NCBI GenBank assembly: GCA_001664005.1
Contig: CP016093.1
Coordinates: 1,681,001 to 1,745,000, forward strand
DNA from: Rhizobiales bacterium NRL2
Lineage (GTDB): Bacteria > Pseudomonadota > Alphaproteobacteria > Minwuiales > Minwuiaceae
Direction of reading: 5' to 3'
Length of the DNA: 64,000 bases
Shown one piece after another: positions 794 through 56,719 of this stretch (within the stretch, counting starts at the first letter, position 1; every line of letters starts with the position of its first letter). The translations under genes and the position numbers were made by a program. Under the pieces are notes generated by a model, which saw nothing but the letters and a program-made list of their open reading frames with translations, was not told the DNA's origin and made no database searches.

Positions 794-2689
794 TCACCGT
801 TTCGGGTAGCCCAGGTCCTCCAGCGAGACGCGGATTTCGTCCAGGATCGCCGGATCGTCGATCGTCGCCGGCGTCTTGAATTCCTCCCCGTCGGCGATCT
901 TCTGCATGGTCGCGCGCAGCACCTTGCCCGAGCGAGTCTTGGGCAGGCGCTTGACCGGCGTCACCAGCCGGAAAGCGGCCACCGCGCCGATCTGGTTGCG
1001 GATCATCTGGATGCAGTCGTTGCGGATCTCGTCGACATCGCGCTCGACGCCCGCCTTGAGCACGATCATGCCGAGCGGCAACTGCCCCTTCATCTGATCG
1101 GCGACGCCGAAGACCGCACACTCGGCCACGTCGGGATGCTGGGACAGCACCTCTTCCATGGCGCCGGTGGAGAGGCGGTGACCGGCGACGTTGATGATGT
1201 CGTCGGTGCGGGCCATGACGTAGAGATAGCCATCCTCGTCCATATAGCCGGCGTCGGCGGTCTTGTAGTAGCCGGGATAGTCGGTGAGATAGGCGTCGCG
1301 GAAGCGCTGGTCGGCGTTCCACAGCGTCGGCAGCGCGCCCGGCGGCAGCGGCAGCTTCACCACGATCGCGCCCATGTCGCCGCGTTTCACTTCCTCGTTC
1401 TGTTCGGAGACGATGCGGATGTCATAGCCTGGCACCGGCTTGCCCGGACTGCCGTACCTCACCGGCAGGGCCTCCATGCCCATCGGGTTGATCGCCATGG
1501 GCCAGCCGGTCTCGGTCTGCCACCAGTGATCGATCACCGGCACCTCGAGCTGCTTTTCGGCCCACTGGATGGTGTCGGAATCCGCGCGCTCCCCGGCCAG
1601 GAACAGGATGCGGAACTTCGACAGGTCGTACTTGCCGATGAACTCGCCCTTCGGATCCTGCTGCTTGATGGCCCGGAAGGCGGTCGGCGCGGTGAACATC
1701 ACCTGCACGTCGTGGTCGGCGATGACGCGCCAGAAGGTGCCGGGGTCCGGAGTGCCGACGGGCTTGCCCTCGAACAGGATGGCCGTGGCCCCGTGCAGCA
1801 GCGGCGCGTAGACGATGTAGCTGTGGCCCACCACCCAGCCGACGTCGGAGGCCGCCCAGAAGGTCGTGCCCGGATCGACGTCGTAGAGGTTCTTCATGGA
1901 CCATTTCAACGCCACGGCGTGGCCGCCATTGTCGCGCACCACGCCCTTGGGCTGGCCCGTCGTGCCGGAGGTGTAGAGGACGTAGAGCGGATCCGTCGCC
2001 TTCACGGTAACGCATTCGGCCGGCTCCGCGTCCTTCAGCGCGTCGTCCCAGAGCATGTCGCCGGCGCGCATGTCGAACGCCGGGACTTCGGGGCGCGCGT
2101 AGACGATGGTGCCGTCCGGCTTGTGCTTCGACAGGTCGATCGCCTTGTGGATCAGCGGCATGTATTCGATCACCCGGCCCGGTTCCAGGCCGCAGGTCGC
2201 GGCGATGATCAGCTTCGGCTTTGCGTCGTCGATGCGGGTGGCGAGCTCGTTGGGAGCGAAGCCGCCGAAGACCACCGAATGCACTGCGCCGATCCGCGCG
2301 CAGGCCAGCATGGCCACTGCCGTCTCCGGAATCATCGGCATGTAGATGATCACGCGGTCGCCCTTGCCCACGCCGCGGGCGCACAGCGCGCCGGCGAACA
2401 GCGCCACCCGGTCGCGCAGATCGCGATAGGTCAGCCGCTCGACATTTCCCGTCATCGGGCTGTCGTAGATGATCGCCGCCTGGTCGGCGCGGCCGCCCTC
2501 GACATGGCGATCCAGGCAGTTGTAGGCGGTGTTCAGTTCGCCGCCGGCGAACCAGCGGTAGAACGGCGGGTTGGTATCGTCCAGTACCCTGTCCCAGGGT
2601 TTGACCCAGTCGATTTCCTTCGCGGCCTCGGCCCAGAAGCTTTCCGGATCCTTGCGCCAGGCGTTGTAGACGTCGTCATAACGGCCCAT
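794..2689 (-). CDS. prpE: propionyl-CoA synthetase (propionate-CoA ligase)
   Basis: This 631-residue enzyme of the acyl-adenylate superfamily activates propionate with ATP and CoA in the cytoplasm. The adenylation P-loop YTSGTTGQPKG is at about residues 239-249, followed by VVRDNGGH, a signature of PrpE rather than acetyl-CoA synthetase. The C-terminal LPKTRSGK places the catalytic and acetylatable lysine at about 589. I chose the ATG at 2689 because GGAGGG lies just upstream and MGRYDDVYNAW aligns with family N-termini; an in-frame ATG 16 codons earlier has no such site. No methylcitrate-cycle genes are in view. Acetyl-CoA synthetase is the alternative call. Confidence 0.9.
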   Translation of the reverse strand: MGRYDDVYNAWRKDPESFWAEAAKEIDWVKPWDRVLDDTNPPFYRWFAGGELNTAYNCLDRHVEGGRADQAAIIYDSPMTGNVERLTYRDLRDRVALFAGALCARGVGKGDRVIIYMPMIPETAVAMLACARIGAVHSVVFGGFAPNELATRIDDAKPKLIIAATCGLEPGRVIEYMPLIHKAIDLSKHKPDGTIVYARPEVPAFDMRAGDMLWDDALKDAEPAECVTVKATDPLYVLYTSGTTGQPKGVVRDNGGHAVALKWSMKNLYDVDPGTTFWAASDVGWVVGHSYIVYAPLLHGATAILFEGKPVGTPDPGTFWRVIADHDVQVMFTAPTAFRAIKQQDPKGEFIGKYDLSKFRILFLAGERADSDTIQWAEKQLEVPVIDHWWQTETGWPMAINPMGMEALPVRYGSPGKPVPGYDIRIVSEQNEEVKRGDMGAIVVKLPLPPGALPTLWNADQRFRDAYLTDYPGYYKTADAGYMDEDGYLYVMARTDDIINVAGHRLSTGAMEEVLSQHPDVAECAVFGVADQMKGQLPLGMIVLKAGVERDVDEIRNDCIQMIRNQIGAVAAFRLVTPVKRLPKTRSGKVLRATMQKIADGEEFKTPATIDDPAILDEIRVSLEDLGYPKR

Positions 2690-47673: not shown

Positions 47674-48501
47674 CTACTCCGGCTTGACCGGCTTGTCGGC
47701 GTGCTTGTCGAGCTGATGCGGGTTCATCATGCCCATGACATTGTAGCCGGAATCCACGTGGTGGACCTCCCCGGTGACGCCCGATGACAGGTCGGAGAGC
47801 AGGTAGAGCCCCGCGCCGCCGACATCGTCCTGGGTGATCGCGCGCATCAGCGGCGCGTGGTCACGCGTGTAGCCGAAGACATAGCGCGCGTCGCCCACGG
47901 CGGCGCCGGAAACGGTGCGCATGGGTCCGGCCGAAATGGCGTTGACGCGGATCATCTGGGCGCCGAGGTCGACGGCGATGTAGCGCACGCTGGCCTCCAG
48001 CGCCGCCTTGGCCACGCCCATGACATTGTAGCTCGGCATCCAGCGCTCGGCGCCGGAGAAGGAGAGCGTGAGCAGACTGCCGCCCGATTTCATCAGCGGC
48101 GACGCGAGGCGGGCCGTTTCGGTGAAGGAGTAGCAGCTGATCTCCATCGTGCGCTGGAAGTTCGCCGGGCTGGTATCGACATAGCGGCCCTTCAGCTCGC
48201 CCTTGTCGGAGAAGGCGATGGCGTGGACGACGAAGTCCAGGTTGTCCCACTGCTGACCCAGCTTCTCGAAGACCCGGGCCTGATCGCCCGGCTGGCCGAC
48301 ATCGCAGGGTTCAAGGAAGGTCGCGCCGACGGACTCCGCCAACGGCTTCACCCGCTTCAGCATGGCGTCGCCCTGGTAGGTGAAGGCCAGGTTCGCGCCT
48401 GCCGCATGCGCTGCCCTGGCGATCGCCCAGGCGATGGAATGATCGTTGGCGACCCCCATGATAAGTCCGCGGCGGCCGGTCAGGATGCCCTCTGTCTTCA
48501 T
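47674..48501 (-). CDS. fabI: enoyl-ACP reductase (NADH)
   Basis: This 275-residue short-chain reductase catalyses the last step of each fatty-acid elongation cycle. It begins GILTGRRGLIMGVANDHSIAWAIA. The catalytic pair is Tyr158 and Lys165 (PSYNVMGVAKAALE), and the C-terminal block is LSSGVTGEVHHVDSGYNVMGM. The conserved first tyrosine of the FabI active site (SYxGAE in E. coli) is Phe148 here (SFSGAE). It is the last gene of fabA-fabB-fabI, three bases after fabB, with a poor ribosome site. Confidence 0.93.
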   Translation of the reverse strand: MKTEGILTGRRGLIMGVANDHSIAWAIARAAHAAGANLAFTYQGDAMLKRVKPLAESVGATFLEPCDVGQPGDQARVFEKLGQQWDNLDFVVHAIAFSDKGELKGRYVDTSPANFQRTMEISCYSFTETARLASPLMKSGGSLLTLSFSGAERWMPSYNVMGVAKAALEASVRYIAVDLGAQMIRVNAISAGPMRTVSGAAVGDARYVFGYTRDHAPLMRAITQDDVGGAGLYLLSDLSSGVTGEVHHVDSGYNVMGMMNPHQLDKHADKPVKPE

Positions 48502-48504
48502 CGA

Positions 48505-49725
48505 TCAGTCCGCCAGCCGCTTGAACACGAGGCTGGCGTTGGTGCCGCCGAAGCCGAAGCTGTTCGACATCACGCAGTTGAGGCCGGCATTGTCGATCCG
48601 TTCCCGCACCAGCGGATAATCGCCCACACCGTCGTCGGCATTGTCGATGTTGACCGACTTGGCGAGGAAGTCGTTCTCCAGCATGAGCAGGGAGTAGATC
48701 GATTCGTGCACGCCGGCGGCGCCCTGGCTGTGGCCGGTCAGGCTCTTGGTCGAGCTCACTTTCGGGAGGTTCTCGCCGAAGACCTCGCGGATCGCATTCA
48801 GTTCGATGATGTCGCCGACCGGGGTCGCGGTGCCATGGGCGTTGATGTAGTCGACCGGCGTGTCGCCGACGGTCCCCAGCGCCAGGCCCATGCAGCGTTT
48901 CGCCCCCTCGCCGGAGGGCGCGACCATGTCCACGCCGTCGGAAGTGGCGCCGTAGCCGATGACCTCGGCATAGATCTTCGCGCCGCGAGCGCGGGCATGC
49001 TCCAGTTCCTCCAGAACGACCATGCCGCCGCCGCCGGCAATGACGAACCCGTCGCGGTCGCGGTCATAGGCGCGGCTGGCCTCAGTGGGCCGGTCATTGA
49101 ACTTGCTCGACATGGCGCCCATGGCGTCGAACAGCATCGACAGCGACCAGTGCAGCTCTTCGCCGCCGCCGGCGAAGACGATGTCCTGCTTGCCGAGCTG
49201 GATCGATTCGTAGCCGTTGCCGATGCAGTGGGCGCTGGTGGAGCAGGCGGACGAGATGGAGTAGCTCATCCCCTTGATCTTGAACGCCGTCGAAAGGTTG
49301 GCGGAGTTGGTCGAGCACATGCATCGCGGGACCATGAACGGACCGATCCGCTTCACGCCCTTCTCACGGGCGATGTCGGCCGCCTGCACCTGGTTGGAGG
49401 TGGAAGGCCCGCCGGAGCCGGCGATCAGACCGGTGCGCGGGTTCGAGACGTCGTTCTCCTCCAGTCCCGCGTCGGCGATCGCCTCCTTCATGGCGATGTA
49501 GTTGTAGGCGGCGCCGGGTCCCATGAAACGCAGCACACGCTTGTCGATGTGGTCCGCCGGATCGAGCTTGATCGAGCCGTGGATCTGGCTGCGCATGCCG
49601 AGCTCGGCGTATTCATCCGCGAAGACGATGCCTGAACGGCCTTCTCTGAGGCTGGCCGTCACCTCTTCCTTGTCGTTGCCGATGGAAGAGACGATGCCGA
49701 TGCCCGTGACGACTACTCTTTTCAA
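48505..49725 (-). CDS. fabB: beta-ketoacyl-ACP synthase I
   Basis: This 406-residue thiolase-fold condensing enzyme elongates unsaturated acyl-ACPs made by FabA. The catalytic triad is Cys161 ([11 protein letters not shown]), His297 ([11 protein letters not shown]) and His332, with Lys327 in [28 protein letters not shown] closes the fold. The start codon is TTG at 49725, preceded by GAGGG. It is 10 bases after fabA and 3 before fabI, so the three genes form one operon for unsaturated fatty acid synthesis. Confidence 0.95.
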
Positions 49726-49735
49726 GGCGCAGCCC

Positions 49736-50251
49736 TCAATTGTTGGCGGTGGTGAACAGTCCGACCCTCAGATCGTTGGCGCGGTAGACCTCCTCGCCGT
49801 CGACCTTGACCACGCCATCGGCGATGCCGAGGACGAGCCGGCGCGCAATGGTGCGCTTGATCGACAGGTGATAGGTGACCAGCTTGGCCGTGTTCAGGAT
49901 CTGGCCGCCAAGCTTGACCTCGCCCACGCCCAGCGCGCGGCCCTTGCCCGGCAGGCCGAGCCAGCCCAGGAAGAAGCCGACCGACTGCCACAGCGCGTCG
50001 AGGCCGAGACAGCCGGGCATGACCGGATCATTCTCGAAATGACACTTGAAGAACCAGAGGTCGGGCTTGACGTCGAGTTCGGCTTCCAGTTCGCCCTTGC
50101 CGTACTCGCCGCCGTCCTGATTGATCTTCGTTATGCGGTCAAACATCAGCATCGGCGGCAACGGCAGCTTCGCATTGCCCTCTCCGAACAGCCGCCCGTG
50201 GCCGCATTCAAGCAGTTCTTCGTATGTGTAGCTCGACTGACGTTCGCTCAA
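49736..50251 (-). CDS. fabA: 3-hydroxydecanoyl-ACP dehydratase/isomerase
   Basis: This 171-residue hot-dog-fold enzyme dehydrates 3-hydroxydecanoyl-ACP and isomerises the double bond to cis-3, starting unsaturated fatty acids. Active-site His71 and Asp85 sit in [20 protein letters not shown]. The frame has no suitable ATG. A TTG at 50251, followed by [22 protein letters not shown] and preceded by CGAGGCGACC, gives exactly the family length, so TTG is the start. It is divergent from irr across 183 bases. Confidence 0.94.
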
Positions 50252-50434: not shown

Positions 50435-50848
50435 ATGTCGGAAACCAAAACATCGAAGCTCGTCGATCGTCTCCGCGCGGCCCGTCTCAGGCCGACGCGC
50501 CAGCGCGTCGCGCTGGCGGAACTGATCTTCGACGGCGGCGATCGTCACCTCACGGCGGAGCAGCTCTTCGACGAGGCCCTGAGGGCCGGCGTCGCCGTGT
50601 CGCTCGCGACCGTCTACAATTGCCTGCACCAGTTCCGCAAGGCGGGGCTGGTGCGTGAGGTCGTGGTGGATCCGGGGCGATCCTATTTCGACACCAATGT
50701 CAGCGATCACCACCATTTCTACCATTCCCGCACCGGCGAGCTGATCGACATTCCCGGCGCGGCGATCGCGCTGGGCGACCTGCCGTCGGCGCCGAAGGGC
50801 ATGCGCGTCGAGAGCGCCGAGGTGATCATCCGCCTGTCCGACGAATAG
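50435..50848 (+). CDS. irr: iron response regulator Irr (Fur family)
   Basis: This 137-residue Fur-superfamily regulator of alphaproteobacteria represses or activates iron and haem genes under low iron. The winged helix [15 protein letters not shown], then [20 protein letters not shown], is followed by [13 protein letters not shown], where His92-His94 are the Irr/Fur-type histidine cluster. The N-terminal haem-regulatory Cys-Pro of Bradyrhizobium Irr is absent. The ATG at 50435 has no ribosome site, with TATATAAG right upstream. The irr / fabA-fabB-fabI arrangement is found in other alphaproteobacteria. An Irr box lies 44 bases after its stop. Confidence 0.92.
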
Positions 50849-50891
50849 CTGCCGGCGAAAAATACTTGCAATCGCGTCGCATCTGCATTAG

Positions 50892-50908
50892 TTTAGAATT
50901 ATTCTAAT
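50892..50908. promoter_or_regulatory. iron control element (Irr box, ICE)
   Basis: TTTAGAA-TTA-TTCTAAT matches the ICE pattern TTTAGAA-N3-TTCTAAA at all but the last base. It forms a 15-base palindrome TTAGAAT-T-ATTCTAA. It lies 92 bases before the rubrerythrin ATG, just after irr. A candidate promoter (TTGCAA at 50866-50871, 17 bases, TAGTTT at 50889-50894) overlaps it, so Irr bound here would repress. Confidence 0.8.
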
Positions 50909-50999
50909 CTGGTTGACGCTTCCTCCATGCTTGGCTAGAAATACTGCGAGCGCTGCGAAGGCGCCGCGCAATGCCAAGCATCACCTGGAGGAGAGCACC

Positions 51000-51416
51000 A
51001 TGCAGCTCAAGGGAAGCAAGACCGAACAGTCCCTGAAGGAAGCCTTTGCGGGCGAATCCCAGGCCAATCGCCGCTATCTCTATTTCGCGCAGAAGGCGGA
51101 CGTCGAAGGCTTCAACGACGTCTCGTCGGTCTTCCGCTCGACCGCCGAGGGCGAGACCGGCCACGCGCACGGCCATCTGAAGTTCCTGGAGGAGGTCGGC
51201 GATCCGGCTACGGGCGAGCCGATCGGCTCCACCCAGGAGAACCTGAAGGCCGCCATCGCGGGCGAGACCCACGAATACACCGACATGTACCCGGGCATGG
51301 CGAAGACCGCGCGCGACGAGGGCTTCGACGAGATCGCCGACTGGTTCGAAACCCTGGCCAAGGCCGAGAAAAGCCACGCCGGCCGCTTCCAGAAGGCGCT
51401 GGATACGATGGGCTGA
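51000..51416 (+). CDS. rubrerythrin-family diiron protein (no rubredoxin domain)
   Basis: This 138-residue four-helix diiron protein keeps all ligand motifs: Glu19 ([10 protein letters not shown]), Glu52 and His55 (EGETGHAH), Glu89/Glu92 (AGETHEY) and Glu123/His126 (KAEKSHAG). It lacks the C-terminal rubredoxin domain of full rubrerythrin, so it needs an outside electron donor. Such proteins reduce peroxide or store iron. The start follows CTGGAGGAG. The Irr box upstream implies repression when iron is low. The Fe-S protein gene follows after 97 bases. Confidence 0.92.
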
Positions 51417-51434
51417 GCAGCCCTGCCGACGATT

Positions 51435-51458
51435 GGGCGGTCCCGTACGGGGCCGCCC
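51435..51458. repeat. strong hairpin between rubrerythrin and Fe-S protein genes
   Basis: GGGCGGTCCC-GTAC-GGGGCCGCCC forms a 10-base-pair stem with one G-T wobble and a GTAC loop, 19 bases after the rubrerythrin stop. There is no T-run, so it may be an mRNA-stabilising or attenuating structure that sets different levels for rubrerythrin and the genes behind it rather than a full stop. Confidence 0.6.
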
Positions 51459-51513
51459 GCTCGTCCGACTGCAAGATCATTTCCCGTTACGTCATTTTTC
51501 AGGAGCCATCGAC

Positions 51514-52866
51514 ATGAGCGAAGGTGGTCTGGAGGCGCCCCAGCGCATTCCGCTCAACTGGCAGGATCCCGAATTCCATGATGCCGAGGCCATCGACGCC
51601 GAGTTGCGCCGGGTCTTCGACATCTGTCATGGCTGCCGGCTCTGCTTCAATCTCTGCGACAGCTTTCCGCGGCTGTTCGACCTGATCGACGAGAGCGAGT
51701 CGGGCGAACTCGACAGCGTTTCCTCGGACGGCTTCAAGCCCGTCGTCGACGCCTGCACGCTGTGCGACATGTGCTTCATGTCGACCTGCCCCTATACGCC
51801 ACCGCATGAGTTCATGCTCGATTTCCCGCATCTGATGCTCCGCTACCGCGCCGCCGAGCACCAGGCGAAGGGCAAGGGCTTCTGGGACGATCAGCTTACC
51901 CGCACCGATCGCAACGGGCGCCTGGCCGGCATGGCCGCGCCGCTGGCGAACTGGGCGACGAAGACCGGCAACGGTCTGACGCGTCCGATCCTGGAGGACG
52001 TGGCCGGCGTCGACCGCAAGGCCGAGCTGCCGAAGTTCCATTCGAAGAGCTTCGCCTCCCGCGCCGCGCACGGCCCCGAGGTGAACCGCGAGGCGCCGGC
52101 CGCCGGGCGCAAGGCGGTGCTCTACGCGACCTGTTTCGTGAACTACAACAACCCCGGCATCGGCGAGGCGACCCAGGCCATCCTGGCGGCCAATGGTGTC
52201 GAGACCGTGGTCGAGTATCCCGAATGCTGCGGCATGCCGCAGCTCGAGCATGGCGATCTGGAGGACGTCGCCGGCCGGGCCCGGCGCGTGGCCGCGGCGA
52301 TGAAGCCCTGGCTGGACGATGGCTATGACGTCATAGCCCTGGTGCCGTCCTGCGCGCTGATGCTGAAGTTCGAATGGCCCCTGCTGCTGCCCGACGACTC
52401 GGCGGTGAGGCGTCTGGCGGAAGCCACGCGCGACGTCGCCCAGTACATCGTCGAGATCGCCAAAGGCGAGGGACTGGCCGTGGAGCCGAAGCCGCTGGAC
52501 GGCGGCGTCAGTCTGCATCTGGCCTGTCACGCGCGGGCCCAGAACATCGGCCAGAAGGCGGCCGAGATGCTGCGCCTGATCCCCGACAGCGATCTCAAGA
52601 TCATCGAGCGCTGCTCGGGCCACGGCGGCAGCTGGGGCATCAAGAAGGAGAACTTCGAGACCGCCCTGAAGGTGGGCAAGAACGCCGCCCGGGCGGCCGG
52701 CCGCGAAGGCAAGGAATACGTGGCGTCGGAGTGCCCGCTCGCCGGGGTGCACATGCTCCAGGGCATGGAGATCCTCAACGAGGAGAACCCGGACAACTTC
52801 AATGCGCCGCCGAAGACATCACATCACCCGGTAGAGCTGTTCGCCAGGGCCTGTGGCCTGATCTGA
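51514..52866 (+). CDS. GlpC/heterodisulfide-reductase-like Fe-S oxidoreductase
   Basis: This 450-residue protein has two N-terminal 4Fe-4S sites: Cys38-41-44-48 ([11 protein letters not shown]) and Cys81-84-87-92 ([12 protein letters not shown]). It has two C-terminal cysteine-rich (CCG) domains. The first has the normal CCG in [17 protein letters not shown]; the second reads [10 protein letters not shown], with Ser and Gly-His where a second Cys-Gly would sit. It has no membrane helices and would pass electrons between partners. It follows the rubrerythrin and precedes DUF3501, an arrangement I know from other proteobacteria. It has an AGGAGCC ribosome site. Confidence 0.88.
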
Positions 52867-52951
52867 ACGATGTCCGCAGCGCCGGCGCCGGTCCGTGCCG
52901 GGACGGTGTCCGCCCGCCGGGCGGTGCAGCCAATCTGATGGAGACGGTAGA

Positions 52952-53548
52952 ATGCAGATCGAGAGCAAGACCGAGCTGAAGCCCGAGGACATCATTCCGG
53001 TCGAGGCGTTCGAGGCGCGCCGCAAGGAGCTTCAGGCCGAACTCCGCGCCCACAAGAAGCACCGGCGCGTCGATGTCGGCCCCTTCTGCTCGTTCTATTT
53101 CGAGAGCTATTTCACCATGTGGTGGCAGGTGCAGGAGATGCTCCGGGTGGAGCGCGGCGGCGACGCGCAACTTGCCGACGAGATCACGGCCTACGCGCCG
53201 CTGATCCCCGGCGGCCGCAACCTGACCGCGACCATGATGATCGAGATCGAGGACCCGGTGCGCCGTCATCGCGAGCTTTCGACACTGGGCGGCATCGAGG
53301 AGACGGTGGCCCTGGTCATCGGCGGCGAGACGGCGAAGGGCGTGGCCGACGACGATGTCGACCGCACGACCGCCGACGGCAAGGCGTCGTCGGTGCATTT
53401 CTTCAGCTTTCCGCTGAACGAGGCGCAGGCGGCGGCGCTGAAGAAGGGCGGCGCAGAGGTGCAGCTCCGCATCGGGCACCGCAACTACAACCACATCGCG
53501 ATCCTCTCTCCCGACCAGGTGGCTTCGCTGGCCGGCGACCTCGCCTGA
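52952..53548 (+). CDS. DUF3501-family protein
   Basis: This 198-residue protein of unknown function has DUF3501 (PF12007) marks: ELKPEDIIPVEAFEARRKELQAEL at the N-terminus, GPFCSFYFESYFTMWWQVQEMLRVE near residue 48, and RNLTATMMIEIEDPVRRHRELSTLGGIE. It is soluble with one cysteine. Its fixed place behind a rubrerythrin and a GlpC-like Fe-S protein suggests a third part of a peroxide or iron-dependent redox system. The start has GGAG nine bases before it. No catalytic residue can be assigned. Confidence 0.85.
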   Translation: MQIESKTELKPEDIIPVEAFEARRKELQAELRAHKKHRRVDVGPFCSFYFESYFTMWWQVQEMLRVERGGDAQLADEITAYAPLIPGGRNLTATMMIEIEDPVRRHRELSTLGGIEETVALVIGGETAKGVADDDVDRTTADGKASSVHFFSFPLNEAQAAALKKGGAEVQLRIGHRNYNHIAILSPDQVASLAGDLA

Positions 53549-53626
53549 GCGTCGCCGTTGCCGGGCCTTCGCGATTGGCGTATTGAGAATGACGACAAGA
53601 TCAATAAGCCACAGGGAGGCATGATC

Positions 53627-54628
53627 ATGAAATTCCTAGCTGCTACCGCCGCTGCCGCGGCGCTGGTTCTCGCCGCTGGCGCTGCCCATGCCGACTGCCA
53701 GGACGGCGAGACCGTCATCAAGTTCAGCCACGTCACCAACACCGACAAGCACCCCAAGGGCATCGCCGCCAGCCTGCTGGCCGAGCGCGTCAACAAGGAG
53801 ATGGACGGCAAGGCCTGCATGCAGGTCTTCCCGAGTTCCCAGCTCTACAATGACGACCAGGTGCTGGAGGCGCTGCTGGCCGGCGACGTCCAGCTCGCCG
53901 CGCCGTCGCTGTCGAAGTTCGAGAAGTTCACCAAGAAGTTCCGTATCTTCGATCTGCCCTTCGTGTTCACCGATGTCGACGCCGTCGACCGCTTCCAGAA
54001 CTCGCCCGACGGGCAGAAGCTGAAGACGTCGATGGAGCGCCGCGGCCTGACCGGCCTCGCCTTCTGGCACAACGGCATGAAGCAGATGTCGGCCAACAAG
54101 CCGCTGATCCACCCGTCCGACGCGGATGGCCTCAAGTTCCGCATCCAGCAGTCGGACGTGCTGCAGGCGCAGTTCGAAGCGATCGGCGCCAATCCGCAGA
54201 AGATGGCCTTCTCCGAGGTCTACGGCGCGCTGCAGACGGGCGTGGTCGACGGTCAGGAGAACACCTGGTCGAACATCTACGGCCAGAAGTTCTTCGAGGT
54301 TCAGGACGGCGTGACCGAGACCAACCACGGCATTATCGACTATCTGGTGGTGACATCCACCGACTGGTGGAACGGCCTTGACGCCGACGTGCGCGATCAG
54401 TTCTCGACCATCCTCGCCGAAGTGACCCAGACCCGGAACGCCGAATCCACCTCGGTCAACGAGCACAACAAGCAGCTCATCATCGCCGCGGGCAGCCCCG
54501 TGCGCACCCTGTCGCCGGAACAGCGCCAGGCGTGGGTCGATGCGATGAAGCCTGTCTGGGATCAGTTCAAGGACGACATCGGTCAGGACCTGATCGACGC
54601 CGCCGTCTCCTACAACGTCTCCAACTGA
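53627..54628 (+). CDS. dctP: TRAP transporter substrate-binding protein, DctP type
   Basis: This 333-residue periplasmic receptor has a signal peptide MKFLAATAAAAALVLAAGAAHA. The family pattern is KFSHVTNTDKHPKGIAASLLAERV, then DLPFVFTD, and GLKFRIQQSD, whose arginine binds the substrate carboxylate, then GVVDGQENTWSNI. It likely binds a C4-dicarboxylate or another organic acid. The ATG at 53627 is preferred to the one at 53621 because AGGGAGG is then seven bases away. It is first in a dctPQM operon. Confidence 0.92.
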   Translation: MKFLAATAAAAALVLAAGAAHADCQDGETVIKFSHVTNTDKHPKGIAASLLAERVNKEMDGKACMQVFPSSQLYNDDQVLEALLAGDVQLAAPSLSKFEKFTKKFRIFDLPFVFTDVDAVDRFQNSPDGQKLKTSMERRGLTGLAFWHNGMKQMSANKPLIHPSDADGLKFRIQQSDVLQAQFEAIGANPQKMAFSEVYGALQTGVVDGQENTWSNIYGQKFFEVQDGVTETNHGIIDYLVVTSTDWWNGLDADVRDQFSTILAEVTQTRNAESTSVNEHNKQLIIAAGSPVRTLSPEQRQAWVDAMKPVWDQFKDDIGQDLIDAAVSYNVSN

Positions 54629-54703
54629 CAGGCGCCGCGGGCCGTCGCCTCAGTGCGGCGGCCCGACCGGCCGCCCGTGCGGCCGGGCCGGGGGGACCTC
54701 AGG

Positions 54704-55354
54704 GTGAATGCCGAGCCGAAATCCGGCGCAGGCCGGATCGTCGACCAGATCGAGGAGACGCTGATCGCGCTCCTGCTCGGCCTGATGACGCTGGTGACCT
54801 TCGCCAACGTCATCGCCCGCTACGTTTTCAACGACAACATTCTCTGGGCGCTCGAGACCACGGTGTTCCTCTTCGCCTGGCTGGTCCTGCTGGGCGCGTC
54901 CTATTGCGTGAAGATCACGGCGCATCTGGGGGTGGATGCCGTGATCGGCCTCGCTTCGCCACCGGTGCGCAGGGTCCTGGTCCTGACGTCGGTGGTCTGC
55001 TGCCTCGCCTTCTCGATCCTGCTGCTGATCGGCGCCTGGCAGTACTGGTCGCCGTTCTTCGGCCGGCAGGTCTGGTACGAGGTCAACGACATTCCGATGC
55101 CGGCCTTCCTGCAGTTCCTCTCCGACTGGCTGAACGAGGGCGAGCGCTATGAGAAGATGCCGCGCTTCATCCCCTATTTCGCCCTGCCGCTGGGGATGGC
55201 GCTGCTCACCTTCCGCTTCCTGCAGGCCGGCTGGCGCGTCCTGAAGGGCGAGCAGGAAACGCTGATCGCGGCCCACGAGGCCGAGATCGACAGCGCCGGC
55301 GTGGCGCCGGTCGACCGGGTCAACGACCTGCCGGAACCGGGGGAGCGGCGCTAG
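54704..55354 (+). CDS. dctQ: TRAP transporter small permease, DctQ
   Basis: This 216-residue inner-membrane subunit has four helices: LIALLLGLMTLVTFANVIARYVFN, LFAWLVLLGASY, VLVLTSVVCCLAFSILLL and the last near PYFALPLGMALLTFRFLQ. The helix-1 block NVIARYVFNDNILWALE is a DctQ hallmark. It starts with GTG at 54704 after GGGGGGAC. A loop of about 40 residues between helices 3 and 4 is longer than in the smallest DctQ proteins. It lies three bases before dctM. Confidence 0.9.
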   Translation: MNAEPKSGAGRIVDQIEETLIALLLGLMTLVTFANVIARYVFNDNILWALETTVFLFAWLVLLGASYCVKITAHLGVDAVIGLASPPVRRVLVLTSVVCCLAFSILLLIGAWQYWSPFFGRQVWYEVNDIPMPAFLQFLSDWLNEGERYEKMPRFIPYFALPLGMALLTFRFLQAGWRVLKGEQETLIAAHEAEIDSAGVAPVDRVNDLPEPGERR

Positions 55355-55357
55355 ATC

Positions 55358-56719
55358 ATGGAAGTCGCGCTTCTCTTCGCCATGGTGATCGGGTTGTTGC
55401 TGATCGGCGTGCCCATCGCCGTCAGCCTCGGCCTGTCGTCGATCGGCTTCCTGCTGATCTTTTCCGACAGCTCGCTCGGCTCCATCGCGCAGACGCTGTT
55501 CAACGCCTTCGCCGGGCACTACACGCTGCTTGCGATTCCGTTCTTCATTCTCGCCTCCGCCTTCATGTCGACGGGCGGCGTGGCCCAGCGCATCATCCGC
55601 TTCGCCATCGCCTGCGTCGGCCATCTGCGTGGCGGGCTGGCCATCGCCGGCGTCTTCGCCTGCATGCTGTTCGCGGCGCTCTCCGGCTCGTCTCCCGCAA
55701 CCGTGGTCGCCATCGGCACCATCGTCATCGCCGGCATGATCAAGGTCGGTTACAGCCGCGAGTTCGCCGCCGGCGTGATCTGCAACGCCGGCACGCTGGG
55801 CATCCTGATCCCGCCCTCCATCGTCATGGTGGTCTATGCCTCCGCGGTGGACGTCTCGGTCGGGCGCATGTTCCTGGCCGGCGTCATCCCCGGCCTCGTC
55901 GCCGGCGTCATGCTGATGATCGGCATCTACATCGCCGCCCGCATCAAGGGCCTGCCGGCGCAGCCCTGGGCGGGCTTTCGGGAGATCCTGGAATCGGCGA
56001 TGGATGCGGCCTGGGGCCTGTTCCTGATCGTCATCATTCTGGGCGGCATCTATGGCGGCATCTTCACGCCCACCGAAGCGGCGGCGGTGGCCGCGGTCTA
56101 CGCCTTCCTGATCGCCAACTTCGTCTACAAGGACATGGGCCCTCTGAAAGGCGGCAAGAAGCTGTGGCGCAACCCGGCGGCGCTGCTGACGGCCTTCGTC
56201 CACCCGGACACCAAGGCGACGCTGTTCGAGGCCGGCAAGCTGACCATCCTGCTGCTGTTCATCATCGCCAACGCGCTGATCCTGAAGCATGTGCTGACCG
56301 ACGAACAGATCCCGCAGTCCATCGCCAGCGCCATGCTGGAGGCCGGATTCGGGCCGATCATGTTCCTGATCGTGGTCAACGTGATCCTGCTGATCGGCGG
56401 TCAGTTCATGGAGCCGTCGGGCCTGATCGTCATCGTCGCGCCGCTGGTCTTTCCCATCGCCATCGAGCTCGGCATCGACCCGATCCATCTCGGCATCATC
56501 ATGGTGGTGAACATGGAGATCGGCATGATCACGCCGCCCGTCGGGCTCAACCTGTTCGTGACCTCCGGCGTCGCCGGCATGCCGATGATGGCCGTGGTCC
56601 GGGCGGCGCTGCCCTGGCTCGGGATCCTGTTCCTGTTCCTGATCCTGGTGACCTACGTGCCCTGGCTGTCGACGTTCCTGCCGACGGCTTTCATGGGCCC
56701 GGAGATCATCACGCAGTAG
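55358..56719 (+). CDS. dctM: TRAP transporter large permease, DctM
   Basis: This 453-residue transport subunit with about 12-13 helices couples organic-acid uptake to Na+ entry. DctM blocks include LLAIPFFILASAFMSTGGVAQRIIRFA, ALSGSSPATVVAIGTIVI, NAGTLGILIPPSIVMVVYA, FTPTEAAAVAAVYA and the C-terminal MITPPVGLNLFVTSGVAG. It is longer than the usual 425 or so residues owing to a cytoplasmic loop around residues 250-290 (PLKGGKKLWRNPAALL). It is followed by a strong terminator. Confidence 0.94.
   Translation: MEVALLFAMVIGLLLIGVPIAVSLGLSSIGFLLIFSDSSLGSIAQTLFNAFAGHYTLLAIPFFILASAFMSTGGVAQRIIRFAIACVGHLRGGLAIAGVFACMLFAALSGSSPATVVAIGTIVIAGMIKVGYSREFAAGVICNAGTLGILIPPSIVMVVYASAVDVSVGRMFLAGVIPGLVAGVMLMIGIYIAARIKGLPAQPWAGFREILESAMDAAWGLFLIVIILGGIYGGIFTPTEAAAVAAVYAFLIANFVYKDMGPLKGGKKLWRNPAALLTAFVHPDTKATLFEAGKLTILLLFIIANALILKHVLTDEQIPQSIASAMLEAGFGPIMFLIVVNVILLIGGQFMEPSGLIVIVAPLVFPIAIELGIDPIHLGIIMVVNMEIGMITPPVGLNLFVTSGVAGMPMMAVVRAALPWLGILFLFLILVTYVPWLSTFLPTAFMGPEIITQ

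Follow-up and report, generated by a model that had tools for sequence, protein, structure and literature searches.

Rubrerythrins of an aerobic-type lineage lack the rubredoxin domain, and Cardenas et al. linked this lineage in 2016 with DUF3501 and with a COG0247 protein that was named RFO (PMC5114695). Among 4461 genomes, all three proteins were present in 185 and the rubrerythrin with DUF3501 only in 25, and the partner proteins were suggested to compensate for the lost rubredoxin domain (PMC5114695). The trio has also been reported in the mitochondria of several protists (PMC7050145) and has been tied to genes for Dps and OxyR (PMC7852563). Here we describe a locus in a 64,000-nucleotide stretch of the Rhizobiales bacterium NRL2 genome (hereafter the window) that resembles the aerobic-type rubrerythrin system in its three genes, in their order and in the absence of the rubredoxin domain (PMC5114695). 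The available text of that paper contains neither Irr nor the words 'regulator' and 'promoter', whereas the unit in the present locus includes irr together with a conserved box. The genes themselves are ordinary and it is their control that is of interest, because the published module appears to be the operon-linked core of a peroxide regulon marked by Irr boxes. We consider it probable that the neighbouring Irr controls this known module through the box, and that Irr runs a PerR-like peroxide regulon in this part of the Alphaproteobacteria.

Irr is an iron and heme regulator, and the targets of the PerR regulon are katA, ahpC, dps/mrgA and PerR itself. Irr and its iron control element (ICE) have been described in Rhizobiales and Rhodobacter, and the regulator family and the box type are the same as those found here (PMC3413700). 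The known Irr targets mbfA and ccpA likewise belong to oxidative stress defence (PMC3413700). Only two boxes were predicted in Rhodobacter sphaeroides (PMC3413700), whereas exact boxes in the genomes studied here lie mostly at genes for KatG, catalase, peroxiredoxin, Dps and rubrerythrin. Neither Irr control of the trio nor an Irr-box peroxide regulon was found in open-licence PMC papers, a scope that does not include Rodionov 2006, the main Irr-box survey.

Architecture of the locus and identity of the regulator

The locus comprises the following features, with positions numbered within the window.

50435-50848, plus strand: irr, iron response regulator of the Fur family (IrrA), 137 amino acids, assigned by NCBIfam models
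50892-50908, no strand assigned: Irr box (ICE-like) TTTAGAATTATTCTAAT, with an exact 15-base core at 50893-50907
50913-50941, plus strand: proposed rbr promoter, TTGACG (50913-50918), 17 nucleotides, weak TAGAAA (50936-50941), predicted from relatives
51000-51416, plus strand: rbr, rubrerythrin of the aerobic type with no rubredoxin domain, 138 amino acids, PF02915 at 106.3 bits
51417-51513, plus strand: gap between rbr and RFO, predicted to form a strong RNA hairpin, fold z-score -3.07 (stretch 51414-51513)
51514-52866, plus strand: RFO, GlpC-like Fe-S oxidoreductase, 450 amino acids, best NCBIfam model PRK11168 GlpC
52952-53548, plus strand: DUF3501 protein, 198 amino acids, PF12007 at 192.8 bits

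A preliminary description of positions 50435-53548 had placed irr, rbr, a GlpC-like gene and a DUF3501 gene in line on one strand, and our sequence and family scans reproduce both the calls and the coordinates. Its statement that the rubrerythrin lacks a rubredoxin domain agrees with the Pfam and PDB matches. The same description presented DUF3501 as the missing third component. This view was dropped, because DUF3501 had already been named in five papers and the trio had been proposed and published in 2016 (PMC5114695).

The regulator is Irr by family, since it passes both curated Irr cut-offs of NCBIfam (201.1 bits against a cut-off of 150 for IrrA, NF045678, and 178.2 bits against 170 for NF045677). 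Residues H38, D86, H92, H94 and D105 are retained in 73-74 of 74 relatives, and an HHH motif at H92-H94, which we take to be heme-binding, is present in 71 of the 74 sequences. None of these 74 sequences has a CP among its N-terminal 45 residues. An N-terminal Cys-Pro heme regulatory motif is characteristic of Bradyrhizobium-type Irr and is not universal among Irr proteins, and thus its absence argues against the Bradyrhizobium subtype but not against Irr. The genome has three FUR-family matches, among which this protein is probably the sole Irr; the remaining two (PF01475 at 129.9 and 34.3 bits) seem not to be Irr proteins.

PerR models give 61.2, 61, 46.3 and 30.2 bits with the irr product, and none of their cut-offs (180-250) is reached. 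In addition, a CxxC pair, which is the structural zinc site of PerR, is found in 0 of the 74 Irr sequences. Positions of Irr that align with the metal ligands of PerR, according to a ligand numbering that we assume to be correct, are conserved. The locus therefore resembles the PerR system in these retained residues and in its list of targets (see below), and differs from it in that the regulator scores as Irr and lacks CxxC.

The box and its conservation among Alphaproteobacteria

The preliminary description noted an ICE-like box 44 bases after irr. The box is borne out by an exact match to the 15-base core, TTAGAATTATTCTAA (50893-50907), under what we presume to be the Irr-box consensus, and the spacing is corrected to 43 bases past the irr stop codon. 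There are only two places in the genome, a single contig of 4.70 Mb, where the exact core occurs, one before rbr and the other before katG.

Conservation was assessed in a class sample of 289 alphaproteobacterial genomes. DUF3501 is found in 138 of them, this genome included, and loci were examined for 100 of the 137 others; the 37 omitted genomes are repeats within a genus, genomes with partial hits and genomes with lower scores. The rbr-RFO-DUF3501 trio is complete, ordered and on a single strand in 98 of the 100 regions. As rbr is absent from the fetched stretch in two loci, the remaining counts are made over 98. In 88 of these loci, irr is the gene immediately upstream of rbr and shares its strand, at a median distance of 189.5 nucleotides.

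Within 300 nucleotides upstream of rbr, the best box has zero, one or two mismatches in 27, 33 and 22 loci, respectively, for a total of 82 of 98. Boxes of this quality arise in 1.2% of dinucleotide shuffles, and the reversed pattern yields one in 98 loci. When one locus is taken per genus, 63 of 77 have a box with up to two mismatches, and such a box is retained in seven of the 10 loci that lack an adjacent irr. Among the 22 two-mismatch boxes, five show mirror-fashion changes on both arms, two of them in the genus of this genome. A second set of 80 named loci, picked by similarity to this RFO, includes 78 that contain rbr; irr adjoins rbr in 74 of these and the best box has zero to two mismatches in 67. 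Among the named relatives, two Minwuia metagenome-assembled genomes are the closest in RFO identity (79 and 81%). Thus, the survey for co-occurrence with DUF3501 and for upstream boxes that the preliminary description called for gives a positive answer on both counts.

Position of the box relative to the predicted rbr promoter

The preliminary description had the box overlapping a candidate promoter, but in relatives the conserved promoter sits just downstream of the box. In the window, TTGACG begins 5 nucleotides past the box core. Among the 82 loci whose box has no more than two mismatches, to which this comparison is restricted, TTGAC lies 3-7 nucleotides past the box in 67 and exactly 4 nucleotides past it in 51, as compared with 18 of 1758 control windows (12 nucleotides each). 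A -10-like hexamer with at least four of six matches is located 16-18 nucleotides beyond TTGAC in 50 of the 67. The Irr box is consequently predicted to abut the -35 element of an rbr promoter, with the centre of the box near -47 relative to the start of rbr transcription, which is predicted at about position 50948.

This position would fit two opposite modes of control, namely repression by a Fur-type dimer lying over the -35 element and activation through contact with RNA polymerase. Therefore repression at low iron, as the preliminary description had it, survives as one of two readings. The alternative is that Irr, active at low heme iron, activates rbr from about 47 bases upstream of the start while repressing dps, ahpC and some katG genes. 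The nearly constant spacing from the box to TTGAC (4 nucleotides in 51 of the 67 loci) would suit an activator, and boxes near the start codons of several dps, ahpC and katG genes, as expected of a repressor, would suit the second half of this proposal. Furthermore, a rubrerythrin transcript of Candidatus Pelagibacter ubique, which has Irr, rises 1.57-fold under iron limitation (PMC2864753), and this speaks against simple repression at low iron if that gene is of the aerobic rbr type. However, a Fur-type dimer at the same position could instead mask the -35 element, and control in common with katG and dps is explained most simply by joint release. We therefore regard activation of rbr as somewhat unlikely. 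Increased resistance to peroxide is reported for an R. sphaeroides irr mutant (PMC3413700).

Other genes that carry the box

The second exact core of this genome lies 99 nucleotides (from the core centre) upstream of katG. There is also a core with one mismatch 80 nucleotides upstream of a gene that matches peroxiredoxin models weakly (1.3e-6 for the best of them, well short of the cut-off), and another one-mismatch core at a location without an evident target.

Exact cores were then counted in 53 trio-bearing genomes, hand-picked mainly for completeness. There are 39 exact cores versus six for the reversed control, and 24 of the 53 genomes have none. Fourteen of the 39 are at rbr, 13 of these being assigned by sequence and one (G258) by position only. 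The other 25 cores comprise six at Dps genes, six at KatG genes (one of them a short frame), four at peroxiredoxin genes, three at catalase genes, one before irr and five before other genes. Peroxide-defence genes (KatG, catalase, peroxiredoxin and Dps) therefore account for 19 of the 25 sites away from rbr, or 20 if irr is counted. Target frames were taken from a simple start-to-stop search, such that some are not genes, and the Pfam tally matched 25 of 43 families. A 17-base pattern with one mismatch gives a weaker contrast in 22 genomes, with 22 sites versus 10 controls (six in G102). Because the box marks the kind of genes that make up a peroxide regulon, Irr would be PerR-like by role, though it is Irr by family. 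The preliminary idea of an iron- or peroxide-handling set is in part upheld by these data, since the neighbourhood and the box are conserved and the box also occurs at peroxide-defence genes.

The short KatG frame (L267, positions 963-1379, minus strand) ends after 139 amino acids (NCBIfam PRK15061, 1.9e-49) and represents either a disrupted gene or a mistake in the assembly. The exact boxes before the five other genes, at L260, L264, L266, L270 and L275, front genes for a GntR regulator, for a nucleotidyltransferase resembling GlmU, for DUF2061 (with a globin-like frame, by eye, behind it), for a protein resembling cyclopropane synthase and for an outer-membrane beta-barrel. These boxes could be chance occurrences or additional targets.

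Several observations weigh against a peroxide regulon governed by Irr through this box. Sites with up to two mismatches number 14 in this genome versus 27 for the reversed control. Across the genome this looser pattern thus shows no enrichment, and by themselves only the exact sites count as evidence. The main weight for the box as a candidate operator comes from the comparison among relatives, where it is strong. Even there, 16 of the 98 loci have no box with two or fewer mismatches (best 3-5). A second gene lies across the box at no fewer than four of the 25 sites away from rbr (L246, L259, L265 and L267). A strict sigma-70 scan of positions 50840-53700 gives no promoter, because the -10-like TAGAAA is weak. 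The Irr of R. sphaeroides bound at mbfA and ccpA but not at katE, and for most genes it looked like an activator and not a repressor (PMC3413700), which suggests that the Irr regulon differs between bacteria. Lastly, the available text of a study of Brucella Irr by DNA affinity purification sequencing (DAP-seq) contains no mention of catalase, peroxide, Dps or rubrerythrin.

A variant operator in a second class

Another proteobacterial class, taken to be Gammaproteobacteria, has DUF3501 in 62 of 143 genomes. In 20 regions from this class (L284-L303) no irr match is found. The sequence before rbr in these 20 regions carries the exact core in three cases, an exact variant, TTAGAC-N3-GTCTAA, in 10 and this variant with one mismatch in five; the reversed variant occurs within one mismatch in none of them. 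There are 15 occurrences of the exact variant in 17 genomes of this class versus three for controls, and five of these are away from rbr (L304, L312, L313, L314 and L316). Those five front three phosphoglycerate mutase genes (two assigned by Pfam, one by eye), a gene for a di-heme cytochrome c peroxidase and one for a Crp-type regulator. A small divergent ArsR-like frame (by eye) lies beside a mutase gene that has the variant operator.

These findings bear on whether a different Fur-family protein reads the box in the window, with the proximity of irr being inherited linkage only. The genome does have two more FUR-family genes, and the related box in the second class stands before rbr with no adjacent irr in any of the 20 regions. 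However, the linkage of irr and rbr in 88 of 98 loci and the agreement of the box with the known Irr box type (PMC3413700) both point to Irr, and we consider another reader improbable.

The rubrerythrin, RFO and DUF3501 proteins

Pfam matches for rbr are confined to PF02915 and a related ferritin model. Its best PDB relatives are one-domain rubrerythrins, which include 4di0/9onm and sulerythrin 1j30; sulerythrin, also a rubrerythrin without a rubredoxin domain, matches rbr at 5e-52. The di-iron ligands E19, E52, H55, E89, E92, E123 and H126 are present in 79 of 79 sequences, and rbr is the most conserved member of the trio, with identities of 83-96% in the named loci and 81-96% in the class sample. 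The ferritin-like fold, the presence of Dps among the targets and a regulator named for iron might suggest that the trio serves iron handling, as a ferroxidase or for iron sparing, rather than peroxide removal. This seems doubtful, as the box is common to KatG, catalase and peroxiredoxin genes and as the rubredoxin-less ferriperoxin is a peroxidase whose gene is needed for aerobic growth (PMC3317640).

Among relatives, the gap between rbr and RFO folds with a mean z-score of -2.93 and falls below -2 in 68 of 93 cases, and by a rough test it is terminator-like in only 12 of the 93. Perhaps the predicted hairpin keeps the level of rbr mRNA above that of the RFO and DUF3501 mRNA.

The preliminary description gave the GlpC-like protein two 4Fe-4S sites and two CCG domains. 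Two ferredoxin-type clusters are indeed predicted, but Pfam (PF02754) recognizes only one CCG domain, at residues 202-285. The second is degenerate, with CSG replacing CCG and with C338, C367 and C407 present in 81 of 81 relatives. RFO scores 190.2 bits against PRK11168, under the cut-off of 278. Fifteen cysteines are conserved in all 81 relatives, of which eight belong to the two ferredoxin-type clusters, four to the first CCG domain and three to the degenerate second one. RFO is a likely electron donor of the rubrerythrin.

DUF3501 matches a solved relative, 3fjv, which was released in 2009 (1.7e-32), and its structural model (pLDDT 93.2) matches the same entry at Z 24.8. The fold comparison yields no function, as chains beyond 3fjv have Z of 7.0 or less and are rated common, and no open-licence PMC paper was found that mentions 3fjv. 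In 77 DUF3501 sequences no invariant or nearly invariant position is a cysteine, although many other residues are invariant, and H181 is the only invariant histidine. A role as electron carrier is disfavoured by this lack of a conserved cysteine, which makes an adaptor more likely, and we infer that the protein has an adaptor or assembly role. A natural RFO-DUF3501 fusion was not found in the 80 named loci, where the nearest case is a short frame overlap in L069.

One possibility is that RFO and DUF3501 assemble or repair the di-iron protein, and that the rubrerythrin takes its electrons from FNR or a ferredoxin. In this respect, ferriperoxin of Hydrogenobacter, likewise rubredoxin-less, can reduce peroxides in vitro when supplied with NADPH and FNR (PMC3317640); its donor is thus demonstrated, whereas the rbr donor here is a proposal. 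The 25 genomes that have rubrerythrin with DUF3501 alone (PMC5114695) and the lack of a conserved cysteine in DUF3501 are also consistent with assembly or repair. However, all 15 Fe-S-type cysteines of RFO are kept in 81 of 81 relatives, as in a redox protein, and a median of only about 12 nucleotides separates the RFO gene from that for DUF3501. We hold the assembly or repair function to be a tentative alternative that is less probable than electron transfer by RFO.

Flanking genes

A fatty-acid gene set is located at 47674-50250 on the minus strand, divergent from irr, and consists by eye of FabA-like, ketoacyl synthase-like and enoyl reductase-like frames. A FabA frame adjoins irr in L259 as well. 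On the other side, 53621-56719 on the plus strand contains a DctP-type TRAP transporter gene (PF03480) followed by membrane-subunit-like frames, and we see no reason to link these transporter genes to the trio.

Proposed mechanism and implications

According to the model of Irr control that we favour, Irr bound to the box would hinder the rbr promoter, with repression being the more likely mode and activation its rival. Ample heme iron, or peroxide damage to Irr, would cause release of Irr, such that the peroxidases are made together. The di-iron site of the rubrerythrin would then reduce peroxide, RFO would pass electrons to the rubrerythrin via its Fe-S clusters, and DUF3501 might keep the partners together.

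In a broader form, Irr would be the master regulator of peroxide defence across much of Alphaproteobacteria, where it would replace PerR and have the trio as its operon-linked core target, recognized through a fixed arrangement of box and promoter, and the variant operator of the second class would perhaps be under another regulator. We give this extension an even chance of being correct. If true, one protein would unite iron and heme status with peroxide scavenging by catalases, peroxiredoxins, Dps and rubrerythrin. A regulatory setting is now proposed for the trio, and peroxide stress would be the condition in which to study DUF3501.

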